Part shown: positions 3-5,783 of the stretch, piece by piece | Layout: each line of letters starts with the position of its first letter | Position numbering within the stretch: the first letter of the stretch is position 1 | Assembly (NCBI GenBank): GCA_021161545.1 | Contig: JAGHAJ010000024.1 | Span: 1 to 5,783, forward strand | Origin: Synergistota bacterium | Lineage (GTDB): Bacteria > Synergistota > JAGHAJ01 | Direction: 5' to 3' | Length of the DNA: 5,783 nucleotides | Program-made: the position numbers and the translations under genes | Notes under the pieces: generated by a model | The model's database searches: none | What the model was told of the DNA's origin: nothing | Seen by the model: only the letters and a program-made list of their open reading frames with translations

Positions 3-89
3 TTTCAGAATATCTTGGAATATATATTCAATGAAGTTCTTGAGTATTACGAAATGATAAAGAATGGGAAAAGAGACCTCTACTTTTAG
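3..89 (+). CDS. C-terminal end of an upstream gene, probably the [FeFe]-hydrogenase maturase HydG (partial)
   Basis: An open frame enters from the left edge and ends at TAG 87-89, giving the last 28 residues of a protein that finishes LEYYEMIKNGKRDLYF. The composition is protein-like and the helix-rich tail ending in G-K-R-D-L-Y-F resembles, as I remember it, the C-terminus of HydG, the radical-SAM tyrosine lyase that makes the CO and CN ligands of the H-cluster. The gene order fits: hydG, a small gene, then hydE, which as I recall is also the arrangement in Thermotoga maritima. The next gene begins inside this one, overlapping it by 26 bases, which argues for one transcript. The identification rests on a short tail and on context. 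That a gene ends here is fairly sure; that it is HydG is a moderate inference. Confidence 0.5.
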   Translation, partial: FQNILEYIFNEVLEYYEMIKNGKRDLYF

Positions 90-330
90 AGAATTTTCTG
101 AGCTGGCATTCGAGATAAAGCGAAAGTATGGAATTGGCCTTCAGTTAGTTGAAATAATTGGTAGTAGATGGTCTTTTGTGGCAGGAGAGGAAGACGAGCA
201 AAGTTTTCTTCCCCCTGAGCGCATTCGTGTAGGGAGGCGATTTGGCATTGTTTCTGCATGTTGGAGTAGATTACCGGATTTCGAAAAGGAGAAGATACTA
301 ACTGTGGTGAAACGATATGACAAAAGATGA
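64..330 (+). CDS. Small uncharacterised protein between the putative hydG and hydE (88 aa)
   Basis: I do not recognise a named family. The 88-residue product is soluble, with no signal peptide or membrane segment. It starts with a probable amphipathic helix (about residues 7-22), followed by a mixed segment containing GSRWSFVAGEEDE, a proline/arginine stretch LPPERIRVGRRFG, and a C-terminal charged helix ending KRYDKR. There is one cysteine (in SACWSRL) and no metal-binding Cys/His cluster. ATG at 64 is the first possible start because TGA and TAA lie just upstream in frame; the ribosome site is weak, so translation probably relies on coupling to the overlapping upstream gene. Its end overlaps the hydE start by 14 bases. 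Being locked between two neighbouring genes suggests a part in H-cluster maturation or its control, but no function is shown by the sequence itself. Confidence 0.7.
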   Translation: MGKETSTFREFSELAFEIKRKYGIGLQLVEIIGSRWSFVAGEEDEQSFLPPERIRVGRRFGIVSACWSRLPDFEKEKILTVVKRYDKR

Positions 331-1372
331 AATTTTGTATTACCTTAAAACCCATCACGAAGTGGATATGTACAGAATTTTTGAGTTGGCAGATAGAGCT
401 CGTAAGAGATACTGCGGTGATGGGGTGCATCTGAGGGGCATAATAGAGTTTTCAAATTGTTGTGTGAGAAACTGCCTGTATTGTGGTTTAAGGAGGGGAA
501 ATGGGAGGGTCCGCAGATACAGAATGACGGTGGATGAGGTTTATCAGGTTGCAAAGTACGCTGCAGATGCTGGTGTGAAGACGATAGTGTTACAGTCAGG
601 TGAAGACCCATACTATACGGTGAGTGAATTATGCAGGATGGTTGAGCGTGTAAAGGAACTTGATGTTGCTGTTACGCTTTCCCTGGGTGAGAAGAGCTAT
701 AGGGACTATAGGTCTCTAAGGGAGGCTGGGGCAGATAGATATCTGCTAAAATTTGAGACATCTAATAAGAGACTTTATGCATTTTTGAAACCAGATTCTT
801 CGTATGTAAACAGGTTTAGATGCCTTGAGTATCTCTCAGAGTTGGGGTATCAGGTGGGCTCTGGTAATATGGTAGGTTTACCCAACCAGTCTTCTGAAAG
901 TATTGCTGATGATATACTTCTATTTGGGATGCTTGAGCTCGATATGGTGGGTATAGGCCCTTTTATACCGCACCCTGATACCCCTTTGGGTAGCTTTAAT
1001 GGTAGTTCATCTTGTTTAACTGTAAAGGTCATAGCACTGACGAGGATACTTACAAGAAATGCCCATATACCTGCAACAACTGCTCTGGCCACGGTGGACC
1101 CTGAAGGTAGGAGGAAAGCCCTGTGTTGCGGTGCAAATGTTGTAATGCCTGATGTGACGCCGCTTTCATATGCAGCCGATTACGAAATATATCCAGATAA
1201 ATTGACCGAGGGTTCCATTGATGAGGTTAGGAGGCTTATTTTTTCTGTCGGTAGGTATGTTGCCAAAGGATATGGTCATAGCCTGAAGATGGGTGGAAAT
1301 GTTAACATTAGGGGTTCTAATATATCTACCTGCAATTATACTGCCACCGTCAATTTCAATCTGCTGATATGA
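317..1372 (+). CDS. hydE: [FeFe]-hydrogenase maturase HydE, radical SAM enzyme
   Basis: HydE is a cytoplasmic radical S-adenosylmethionine enzyme that works with HydG and HydF to build the di-iron subcluster of the H-cluster. The radical-SAM [4Fe-4S] motif CX3CX2C is present at Cys49, Cys53 and Cys56 within NCCVRNCLYCGLRR. HydE-typical blocks follow in order: RYRMTVDEV (67-75), VLQSGEDPYY (91-100), VTLSLGE (119-125), DRYLLKFET (140-148), NMVGLPNQ (184-191), VGIGPFIPHPDTPL (211-224) and IPATTALAT (251-259). The pattern matches T. maritima HydE closely through a TIM-barrel length of about 325 residues. The accessory C-terminal Cys cluster of the Thermotoga enzyme is absent, which is common and known to be dispensable. 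About 25 extra residues follow the usual end (GNVNIRGSNISTCNYT and on). ATG 317 lies inside the end of the small gene, with GGTGA 6 bases upstream. Confidence 0.95.
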   Translation: MTKDEILYYLKTHHEVDMYRIFELADRARKRYCGDGVHLRGIIEFSNCCVRNCLYCGLRRGNGRVRRYRMTVDEVYQVAKYAADAGVKTIVLQSGEDPYYTVSELCRMVERVKELDVAVTLSLGEKSYRDYRSLREAGADRYLLKFETSNKRLYAFLKPDSSYVNRFRCLEYLSELGYQVGSGNMVGLPNQSSESIADDILLFGMLELDMVGIGPFIPHPDTPLGSFNGSSSCLTVKVIALTRILTRNAHIPATTALATVDPEGRRKALCCGANVVMPDVTPLSYAADYEIYPDKLTEGSIDEVRRLIFSVGRYVAKGYGHSLKMGGNVNIRGSNISTCNYTATVNFNLLI

Positions 1373-2714: not shown

Positions 2715-2747
2715 TGGGAATCCGTGTGGATTCCCACCTTTTAATTT
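2714..2747 (+). terminator. Intrinsic terminator of the malic enzyme gene, shared with the convergent gene end
   Basis: A perfect 10-bp inverted repeat, GTGGGAATCC (2714-2723) and GGATTCCCAC (2728-2737), closes a GTGT tetraloop and is followed by CTTTTAATTTTT. The stem begins on the last base of the malic enzyme stop codon, and the T-rich tail overlaps the stop codon of the opposite-strand ligase gene. On the minus strand the sequence beyond the stem (TAAATTCC) is only weakly T-rich, so termination in that direction would be less efficient. Confidence 0.9.
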
Positions 2748-4792
2748 TTGCCTGAATGCTTCTTTGCATCTAATATATTTATTGCATTTATTACAGCTTC
2801 AACAGATGCTAATATTATATCGTCTTTTGCTGCGTGGGAGTTTGCAGTGATACCATTCTCTTCTATTTCTACATATACGTCACCGAGGGCATCTGAGCCA
2901 CCTGTTACTGCTTCTACGGAGAACTCTTTGAGTTTGAAGTTTATGTGTTCTTTTAGAAGGCTCCTTATAGTATTTAGTGATGCATCTACAGGCCCTTTTC
3001 CTATGCCTGCACCTGTGTATTCTTTTCCGTCAACGAGTAGAGATACTGTGGATGTAGCTTTTATATTATTTCCTACTACTGTGGTTATGCCTTTTAATAG
3101 TACCTTTGGTTTTATTTCTTTTTCCTTCTTTTCTGGAGAGATAAATTCCTCTTTGAGCTTGAATTTTTGTATCTTCCCTGATGCGGTCATAGGAAATTTG
3201 TCAACAAATTTTACTACCTGAGGTACCTTGAAGTCAGCAACCTTCTCCTTACAGAACGCTTTTACCTCTTCTTCTGTAAGGTTTTCACCAGGTTTTAATA
3301 TGATAAATGCTGCAACCTGCTCACCGTACTTCTTGTCTGGTATGCCAACCACTTGTGCCTCTTTTACCTTTGGGTGCTCAAGCAGCAATTCTTCTATCTC
3401 TCTGGGAGAGATATTTTCTCCACCCCTTATGATTATGTCTTTAGATCTGCCAGTTATCTTTACATATCCGTCTTCGTCCATTATGCCGATATCTCCAGTG
3501 TGGAGCCAACCCTCTTCATCTATGACCCTTCTTGTTGCGCGAGGTTCCTTGTAGTATCCTTTCATTACATTGTATCCTCTGGTACAAACCTCTCCAGGGG
3601 TGTTTACAGGACAGATTTCTCCTGTATAGAGGTCTGCAATCTTTACTTCTACATGTGCCATAGGTTTGCCAACTGTCTTTACCCTGTGTTCCAGTGTGTC
3701 ATTTGTTTCTGTCATGGTGACTCCGGGAGATGCTTCTGTAAGGCCATAAGTGATTACGACTTCGCTCATATTCATCTCGGTATTGACGCGTCTCATGACC
3801 TCTACCGGGCATGTAGCACCTGCCATTATACCTGTCCTCAGACTTTTCAAGTTAAAGCTCTTGAAATCTTGATGATTTAACATGTTTATGAACATGGTTG
3901 GAACCCCATGAACAGCTGTGCACCGCTCTTTTTCGATTGCTTTTAGAGTAGATTCGGTGTCAAATGCTGCTGATGGTAAAACAGAAGTAGCTCCATGGGT
4001 AGTGCACGCAAGGACCCCTAACACCATACCGAAACAGTGGAATAAGGGCACTGGGATGCAGAGTCTATCTTTACTTGTAAACCTCATGTGTTCTCCTATA
4101 TCATATGCATTATTGATAAGATTGTGGTGGGTGAGCATAACGCCTTTGGGAAAACCGGTTGTTCCACTGGTAAACTGTATGTTTGCTACGTCGTCGAACT
4201 TCACCTTTGACTTTATGAACTTGTAATCTTCATCTGGGTAATCCATTTGCAGTATTTCATTGAATGTAAACATACCTTCTAAATGCTTGTCACTCAGGTG
4301 TATGACGTTTTTCAGGTTTGGGAAAGCCTTGCTCTTGAGTTCTCCCAGTTTTGAACTCTTTAGCTCTGGTACAAGCTCATAAACCATTTCTGCGTACTTT
4401 AAGTTCTTATATTCATCTTCTATTATTAATGTAGATGTCTCTGACTTCTTTATCACATATTCGAAATCTCTTGTCTTGAATGCAGAGTTCACGTTTACCA
4501 GTATGGCTCCTATCTTCATGCAACCAAGCATTACGATAACCCATTCAGCGTTGTTAGTTGACCACAGGGCAACTCTGTCACCCTTTTTCACTCCCAGGCT
4601 TAATAATCCCTTTGCAAAGCTGTCTACTACATCGTTTAGGTCCTTATAGGTATATCTTTTTCCTTGATGGAACGAAACTAATGCCTCGTTGTTTGGATGT
4701 TTGCTCACTATCAGCTCAAAATCCTCTCCTATTGTTTTTCCTATGAGTGGAAAACTCCCCAGTCCGTGAAGGTAGCTTTTCTCAAGCTTCAT
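2741..4792 (-). CDS. Acyl-CoA synthetase (AMP-forming, ACSF2/FadD-like) fused to a C-terminal LeuA regulatory domain
   Basis: This 683-residue protein should activate a carboxylic acid to its acyl-CoA through an acyl-adenylate, in the cytoplasm. Residues 1-550 form a complete ANL-family ligase: P-loop FTSGTTGFPKG (207-217), YGLTEAS (349-355), GWLHTGD (428-434), the hinge/core motif GRSKDIIIRGGENISPREIE (448-467) and the catalytic lysine in MTASGKIQK (Lys540). The N-terminus (SYLHGLGSFPLIGKTIGE) and overall pattern resemble medium/long-chain ACSF2-type ligases; the actual acid cannot be read from sequence. After a lysine/glutamate-rich linker (551-561), residues 562-675 match the C-terminal domain of 2-isopropylmalate synthase, including GKGPVDAS and TGGSDALGDVYVE. 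The frame is unbroken. ATG 4792 follows AAAGGGGTG with an 8-base gap and lies behind a consensus promoter. It ends tail to tail with malic enzyme. The fusion is unusual: family ligases normally stop near residue 550. Confidence 0.93.
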   Translation of the reverse strand: MKLEKSYLHGLGSFPLIGKTIGEDFELIVSKHPNNEALVSFHQGKRYTYKDLNDVVDSFAKGLLSLGVKKGDRVALWSTNNAEWVIVMLGCMKIGAILVNVNSAFKTRDFEYVIKKSETSTLIIEDEYKNLKYAEMVYELVPELKSSKLGELKSKAFPNLKNVIHLSDKHLEGMFTFNEILQMDYPDEDYKFIKSKVKFDDVANIQFTSGTTGFPKGVMLTHHNLINNAYDIGEHMRFTSKDRLCIPVPLFHCFGMVLGVLACTTHGATSVLPSAAFDTESTLKAIEKERCTAVHGVPTMFINMLNHQDFKSFNLKSLRTGIMAGATCPVEVMRRVNTEMNMSEVVITYGLTEASPGVTMTETNDTLEHRVKTVGKPMAHVEVKIADLYTGEICPVNTPGEVCTRGYNVMKGYYKEPRATRRVIDEEGWLHTGDIGIMDEDGYVKITGRSKDIIIRGGENISPREIEELLLEHPKVKEAQVVGIPDKKYGEQVAAFIILKPGENLTEEEVKAFCKEKVADFKVPQVVKFVDKFPMTASGKIQKFKLKEEFISPEKKEKEIKPKVLLKGITTVVGNNIKATSTVSLLVDGKEYTGAGIGKGPVDASLNTIRSLLKEHINFKLKEFSVEAVTGGSDALGDVYVEIEENGITANSHAAKDDIILASVEAVINAINILDAKKHSGKN
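2768..3109 (-). other. LeuA-type dimerisation/allosteric domain within the ligase gene
   Basis: Codons 562-675 encode the two beta-beta-beta-alpha units typical of the leucine-binding regulatory domain of 2-isopropylmalate synthase (Pfam LeuA_dimer). The first unit runs from VLLKGITTVVGNN through the strand VSLLVDGKEYTGAG to GKGPVDASLNTIRSLL (598-613). The second runs from LKEFSVEAVTGGSDALGDVY to the helix ILASVEAVINAINIL (660-674). Both units look complete, and the glycine-rich GGSDALG segment that helps form the effector pocket in LeuA is kept. No part of the LeuA catalytic TIM barrel is present. Leucine or a similar molecule as ligand is an inference from homology. Confidence 0.88.
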
Positions 4793-4988: not shown

Positions 4989-5226
4989 ATGAAAAAATTA
5001 ATCTATGCTATTATTGTATTCCGAGGGTTTTTTAGAATTTGCTATAGGCAAATTGCTGCCGGATGGCAGTGATACTCTTGTAATTATCGTTTACTGTAGG
5101 ACGGGTAAGAGGTCTCTGCTTTCAGCGAAGACATTGCGCAATATGGGTTACTGAAATGTGTTCGGTATAAAGGGTGGTTTTATGGCTTGGAAGGTTAAGG
5201 GCTATCCGGTGAAACATCTGCCTTGA
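4989..5226 (+). pseudogene. Remnant of a rhodanese-domain protein (deleted, frameshifted, in-frame stop)
   Basis: Rhodaneses are sulfurtransferase-fold proteins with a cysteine loop. The remnant starts with a good ribosome site (GAGGTGAT) and ATG 4989 encoding MKKLIYAIIVF, which looks like the start of a signal peptide or lipoprotein leader, but that frame ends at TGA shortly after. From about 5023 a different frame encodes a recognisable C-terminal half of a rhodanese domain: EGFLEFAIGKLLPDGSDTL, then the active-site loop VYCRTGKRS (Cys codon 5095-5097), SAKTLRNMGY, an in-frame TGA (5152-5154), and NVFGIKGGFMAWKVKGYPVK to the TGA at 5224-5226. The first half of the domain, where DVR and GHIPGA motifs are expected, is missing, so roughly 50-60 codons appear to have been deleted. 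Three independent lesions argue for genuine decay. A product made from ATG 5005 would stop at the inner TGA. Confidence 0.8.
5036..5069 (+). repeat. Two adjacent short inverted repeats within the rhodanese remnant
   Basis: AATTTGC (5036-5042) pairs with GCAAATT (5048-5054) around a 5-base loop, and CTGCC (5056-5060) pairs with GGCAG (5065-5069) around GGAT, one base later. Neither is followed by a T-run, so they are not an intrinsic terminator. They lie close to where the frame changes in the remnant. They may be coincidental, as they fall in the conserved-looking coding stretch FAIGKLLPDGS. Confidence 0.4.
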
Positions 5227-5251: not shown

Positions 5252-5269
5252 CTTTCTGGGGGTGGATAG

Positions 5270-5783
5270 TTGGAGGTTTTAATTTTATCTATTACACTTT
5301 CTGCTTTCCTTTCTTTGGCTGTGCTTAGGGCAAAAAGACACGATAACATTTCCCTTGCGTTTATTAGGGAGTTTGGTGTTTTTGTGGCTTTTGTGGGTGT
5401 TGTTGTGCTCGAAAGATGGACTTCTGTTCCGCTCCTCAAGGCAGTTGTAGTGGGTAGTTTTGCCTTCTATCTGGTTGGACTCTCTGTTGCAAATAACCTC
5501 CTTTCGTGGAGATGGGGTTTGCTCTTTGAAGTTGTGGTTGCCGTTATCCTCACAAGATATGGTTTAAGAGTGGACTTTATTCTTGGACTTGACGGTAGAT
5601 TTCACTATTTGGGATGGTATAGTATTCCTATTTCTGTGTTGTGGGTAGTCCTCGTCTCCAACTCTATAAGATTTCTTGACATTATTGAAGGTGTGGCAAG
5701 CGGAGTAATAGTTATTAGTGCTATTACATTTTACCTTGTTGCCTACTTTCAGCAGCAAGCATTGTTTGATGCTATGAATCTGA
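5270..5783 (+). CDS. Divergent WecA/MraY/TagO-family membrane protein, partial, probably lacking canonical catalytic residues
   Basis: The frame runs open for 171 codons to the window edge. It encodes a very hydrophobic protein with about five membrane segments visible (near residues 3-19, 35-48, 55-71, 84-95 and 117-130), plus a sixth at 144-160. The pattern fits the polyprenyl-phosphate phosphosugar transferase family (glycosyl transferase family 4), which loads the lipid carrier for cell-wall or surface polysaccharide synthesis. GLSVANNLLSWRWGLLFE (70-87) aligns without gaps to the family's GL-x-DD-x-x-x-LSPR segment, but the two aspartates are Val73 and Ala74. SNSIRFLDIIEGVASG (130-145) corresponds to the NAxNxxDGxDGLAxG motif, with the second Asn as Arg134 and the DGxDG as DIIEG. 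TTG 5270 is chosen because TAG precedes it directly and GGGGGTGG lies 4 bases upstream. GTG codon 18 is an alternative start. It could be a pseudoenzyme. Confidence 0.7.
   Translation, partial: MEVLILSITLSAFLSLAVLRAKRHDNISLAFIREFGVFVAFVGVVVLERWTSVPLLKAVVVGSFAFYLVGLSVANNLLSWRWGLLFEVVVAVILTRYGLRVDFILGLDGRFHYLGWYSIPISVLWVVLVSNSIRFLDIIEGVASGVIVISAITFYLVAYFQQQALFDAMNL

Follow-up and report, generated by a model that had tools for sequence, protein, structure and literature searches.

TagO/WecA makes undecaprenyl-PP-GlcNAc, to which TagA then adds ManNAc (PMC6493773). On its own, TagA is a peripheral membrane protein and becomes active only at the membrane, and work on T. italicus TagA has established the importance of Thr37, Asp65, Arg83, Gln167, Glu168, and two C-terminal arginines (PMC6493773). 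Among the PNPT enzymes (PF00953), D117 acts on undecaprenyl phosphate and D265 is found near Mg, and an HHH motif is conserved in MraY (PMC5039524). For MraY, binding of the product, lipid I, is known, as is dimerization with undecaprenyl phosphate (PMC9046198).

The window analyzed here, 5,783 nucleotides in length, is an entire contig from a Synergistota genome of 1.58 Mb that is 82% complete. Its last gene encodes the beginning of a membrane domain that resembles WecA/TagO, its best profile match, in fold, helix order, periplasmic hairpin motif, and the position of every motif column. It belongs to a family that departs from WecA/TagO in the residues that fill those columns and in carrying, in its complete members, a GT26 (PF03808) domain at the C terminus. 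This C-terminal half is related to TagA/TarA and WecG and is 40 to 41% identical to T. italicus TagA, but unlike known TagA, which is free, it is attached to a polytopic, catalytically degenerate TagO domain.

The membrane domain has the PNPT fold and has lost the catalytic motifs

The gene (positions 5270 to 5783, + strand) starts with TTG just downstream of a G-rich putative ribosome-binding site recognized by eye (5253 to 5265, +) and encodes 171 residues with no stop codon before the contig end, which cuts off the 3′ part. The product matched PF00953 (E = 1e-8) with 35.8 bits, above the curated cut-off of 27, so the match is not due to chance. An AF2 model of the window part retrieved MraY or DPAGT1 structures as its top 16 PDB entries (Z of 10.1 to 12.6, next unrelated entry 6.8). 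When a complete fusion was modeled with AlphaFold (pLDDT 83), residues 1 to 290 matched MraY 9b70, the closest solved fold, with a Z of 24.1 over 283 aligned residues at 3.2 Å. The domain is thus homologous to the PF00953 enzymes in both sequence and fold. HHalign comparisons of subsets of the degenerate domain with intact WecA/TagO gave pairwise E values, uncorrected for database search, of 4e-23 for the subset nearest the window and of 5e-12 and 3e-18 for others, while the corresponding pairwise values against MraY were weaker (1e-9 to 2e-4). The domain further differs from MraY in lacking the PxHHHxE motif and in having an 11th helix, located at residues 292 to 316 after the MraY-like part in the model of the complete fusion. 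Pfam assigns the membrane half to PF00953 in just the families closest to the window, and in most members it fails to recognize this half.

A preliminary description made from the sequence alone had proposed that Val-Ala at residues 73 and 74 replaces the catalytic Asp-Asp pair and that NSIRFLDIIEG stands in place of NxxNxxDGxDG. Alignment with intact relatives bore out both readings, and the numbering was exact. Val73-Ala74 (5486 to 5491, +) fall in the columns where all 14 intact WecA/TagO proteins have Asp-Asp. NSIRFLDIIEG (residues 131 to 141; 5660 to 5692, +) retains the first Asn, Asp137, and the last Gly of the intact N[AS]xNxxDGxDG, with the second Asn changed to Arg, DG to DI, and the second Asp to Glu. 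The positions of the Mg-binding GD and of HxHHR fall 3′ of the contig end and are readable in relatives only. An alternative alignment placing an Asp-Asp pair elsewhere in the window protein was not found. A frameshift or an assembly or sequencing error was rejected as an explanation for the missing motifs, because independently assembled relatives from the same phylum share the losses in uninterrupted frames.

The losses extend through the family. The 14 intact WecA proteins all keep the Asp-Asp pair, the Asn and Asp positions of NxxNxxDGxDG, and the GD Mg site. By comparison, none of 54 aligned fusions kept the Asp-Asp pair. Within NxxNxxDGxDG, the second Asn survives in 3 of them and the second Asp in 1, and the GD Mg site survives in 4. 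The Mg-site Asp is mostly replaced; the position holds Lys, Arg, or Asn in some fusions and Asp or Glu in others. In five groups, 98 distinct fusions were compared, and neither NxxNxxDGxDG nor HxHH in place occurs in any of them. A single one, Armatimonadota L290, keeps the Asp-Asp pair (VGVADDVHTL) and has lost the other three motifs, and it may well be an intermediate of stepwise decay. No intact bifunctional TagO-TagA fusion was found among the best loci of the five groups, L290 being the nearest. Pattern matches to Asp-Asp or HxHH in G014, G035, L241, and L260 were rejected as lying outside the motif positions, the HxHH match of L260 being in sequence upstream of the domain.

Other positions have been retained. 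The best-conserved part of the domain, GLRVDFILGLDGRFHYLG (5561 to 5614, +), contains G98 and F103, which do not vary in the alignment of the window protein with its relatives, and is predicted to form a periplasmic beta-hairpin, with strands at residues 103 to 105 and 111 to 113 in the AF2 model of the window part; this stretch is conserved in several phyla. In the degenerate halves the hairpin Gly is present in 100% and the Phe in 94%, a Lys and a Pro in 96% each, and Asp137 with the following Gly in 85% (46/54), while a Tyr occupies the place of the catalytic His in 79%. Some residual ligand contact is possible, given that Asp137 and the following Gly are mostly kept. Elsewhere the sequence of the membrane half diverges rapidly between families (16 to 33% identity to the window).

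Both halves of the fusion are under purifying selection. For pairs of relatives in which dS was not saturated, dN/dS was 0.08 to 0.14 for the membrane half, similar to the 0.05 to 0.14 of the GT26 half. A decaying pseudogene was accordingly rejected for the family, on values near 0.1 among relatives; the window species has no close relative in this comparison.

Fusion to a GT26 glycosyltransferase in relatives

Homologues from the same phylum are encoded by frames of 500 to 630 residues, in which a degenerate TagO/WecA-like domain of 11 helices is followed by a WecG/TagA (GT26) glycosyltransferase domain. All 39 Synergistota genomes that are at least 90% complete contain this fusion, with a length of 555 to 620 amino acids. 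Each of the 39 has exactly one GT26 gene, and in every case that gene has a same-frame upstream extension of at least 330 residues, one of them split over two contigs. The identity of the GT26 half was confirmed by Pfam and NCBIfam (PF03808 down to 4e-69, TIGR00696 above cut-off), and residues 323 to 522 of the model matched TagA 5wfg with a Z of 27.7. The catalytic residues of TagA (Thr37, Asp65, Arg83, Gln167, Glu168, and the two C-terminal Arg) are kept in 79 of 79 fusions, with Asn or Asp at the Asn39 position. With a pTM of 0.66, the fusion model places the two halves relative to each other only with uncertainty. We found no description of a fusion between a degenerate TagO domain and TagA in the open-access papers that were searched.

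The rest of the window species' own 82%-complete assembly has no PF03808/GT26 match, and for this species the fusion is therefore inferred rather than seen. Residues 1 to 171 of the window protein align from the start codon onward with complete fusions of relatives, and the window gene itself would continue into a GT26 domain beyond the contig end. A contig break inside this same gene occurs in 3 of 41 assemblies (G008, contigs C61/C12; G037, C15/C91; and the window, G000, C120), and in G008 and G037 the GT26 remainder is present on another contig. The preliminary description had taken the protein for a pseudoenzyme. That reading stands insofar as the fold is kept, the catalytic residues are lost, and the domain is retained by selection, and it is supported by structure models, dN/dS, and phylum-wide conservation; what did not stand is the picture of a stand-alone protein, since in relatives it is fused to GT26. 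The fusion was invisible in the window because the contig ends inside the gene.

The same fusion is found in Atribacterota, Bipolaricaulota, Armatimonadota/WS1, and Riflebacteria. Judged by frame length, it is present in at least 19 of 41 GT26-bearing Atribacterota genomes, of which the best 16 were read, and in about 21 of 42 Bipolaricaulota genomes; 13 fusions were read in Armatimonadota and WS1 and 1 in Riflebacteria. GT26 without the fusion occurs in many genomes of Atribacterota, Bipolaricaulota, and Armatimonadota, which indicates that GT26 chemistry in general can do without the degenerate half. In a GT26 tree, fused sequences clustered strongly, with 3 label changes versus 22 in shuffles. 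One unfused Bipolaricaulota sequence lies inside the fused cluster, and some deep branches are unresolved. The Synergistota fusions did not all group together, the window-like families G002, G004, and G006 being placed outside the main clade, so that the tree is compatible with a single vertical origin but does not demonstrate one.

Active PNPT enzymes and neighboring genes

Complete Synergistota genomes contain at least two further PF00953 genes, of intact MraY and WecA types. Motif reading covered 28 MraY genes and 11 WecA-type genes; the latter have the Asp-Asp pair and the Mg-site GD in 11 of 11 and HxHH, by pattern, in 9 of 11. In two Atribacterota loci (L149, positions 3746 to 11285, and L158) the second gene upstream of the fusion is an intact tagO, the gene between them encodes a sugar-nucleotide epimerase, and mreD-like, PBP2-like, and rodA-like genes follow downstream; these neighbors were identified by eye from sequence. 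This gene run would link the glycan step to the cell-elongation machinery. Neighbors of the fusion in Synergistota (riboflavin genes, serS, and V-ATPase-like genes) provided no functional lead.

Observations were also made on three other loci in the window. The region from 64 to 1372 (+) holds a HydE maturase gene, which scored 320 bits against a cut-off of 254.6 and is preceded by an overlapping open frame of 88 amino acids with no Pfam match. An acyl-CoA ligase gene (2741 to 4792, −) has a LeuA allosteric (dimerization) domain fused at the C terminus (PF08502, E = 1.7e-29), the only such fusion among 41 genomes of the phylum. Other LeuA dimerization domain matches, none of them in the window genome, are in frames of at most 580 amino acids, mostly as long as isopropylmalate or citramalate synthases. 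Either the ligase is feedback-regulated or the gene is an assembly chimera. Just upstream of the membrane protein gene lies a decayed rhodanese-like fragment (5020 to 5223, +) that is interrupted by an in-frame stop and lacks the N-terminal part, and of which the first piece gave a weak Pfam match (E = 0.003, below cut-off).

Possible roles of the degenerate membrane half

The explanation that we favor, and consider reasonably probable, is that the window holds the start of a two-module glycosyltransferase in which a pseudo-TagO domain anchors TagA and receives undecaprenyl-PP-GlcNAc from an active WecA. The GT26 half would add ManNAc, or ManNAc-uronate, to this acceptor, and the membrane half would hold TagA permanently at the membrane. 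The former lipid groove of the membrane half may capture the lipid acceptor made by active WecA/TagO; alternatively, PNPT-type pairing with active WecA/TagO may bring the acceptor or its maker close. The product binding and dimerization of MraY provide a precedent for product binding and pairing by the degenerate half. E. coli WecA has 11 helices and a cytoplasmic C terminus. By this comparison, the modeled helix at residues 292 to 316, which likewise brings the count to 11, would put the fused TagA on the cytoplasmic side, where nucleotide sugars are found. Among the roles suggested in the preliminary description, that of a carrier-binding protein comes nearest to this explanation.

A more specific version holds that the degenerate domain and active WecA/TagO form a heterodimer that replaces the PNPT homodimer, and that the fused TagA is thereby handed lipid-linked GlcNAc directly. 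We think this unlikely as it stands; if it were true, a two-step channel built on a pseudoenzyme would start a surface-glycan pathway and would be conserved in several phyla.

The main rival to docking is that the N-terminal half is a mere membrane anchor for TagA, its PNPT origin being accidental and no ligand or partner being bound. Anchoring alone would help an enzyme that in its free form needs the membrane for activity (PMC6493773), and both the disappearance of the catalytic residues and the rapid divergence between families agree with it. Yet the entire 11-helix fold has been retained although a single helix could serve as an anchor, dN/dS matches the low values of the catalytic half, and conservation falls on specific residues (the hairpin Gly and Phe, Asp137, the Lys, and the Tyr that replaces His), with the hairpin stretch conserved across several phyla. 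We consider a plain anchor rather unlikely.

It is improbable that the N-terminal half is still an enzyme, either a divergent phosphotransferase or a catalyst of some other reaction with a re-made active site. The near invariance of Asp137, the Asp or Glu still found at the Mg-site position of some sequences, and the Asp-Asp pair of the one Armatimonadota fusion would suit this idea, but NxxNxxDGxDG and HxHH are missing from every fusion, other sequences carry Lys, Arg, or Asn at the Mg position, a replacement set of conserved acidic residues is not seen, and intact WecA and MraY are encoded in the same genomes. That the window gene is an unfused, truncated PNPT relic at a contig end is very improbable: the missing GT26 match in its own assembly and the local decay of the rhodanese-like fragment are compatible with it, but the frame is open to the contig end and aligns with complete fusions, the fusion is universal in near-complete genomes of the phylum, and G008 and G037 break inside the same gene yet hold the GT26 part elsewhere.

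With the reading of pseudo-TagO as both anchor and acceptor site for TagA, one enzyme of the pathway, in a copy that has lost its activity, seems to have been turned into a membrane base for the enzyme of the following step. For most members, the TagA half is all that profile databases detect. TagA/WecG annotations in these phyla conceal a polytopic domain, and PF00953 matches there may not be transferases. How undecaprenyl intermediates are handed over between consecutive membrane-bound steps of surface-glycan synthesis is poorly understood, and a universal, single-copy fusion that joins a catalytically dead first enzyme to a second one that appears to be live is a natural experiment on that handover.
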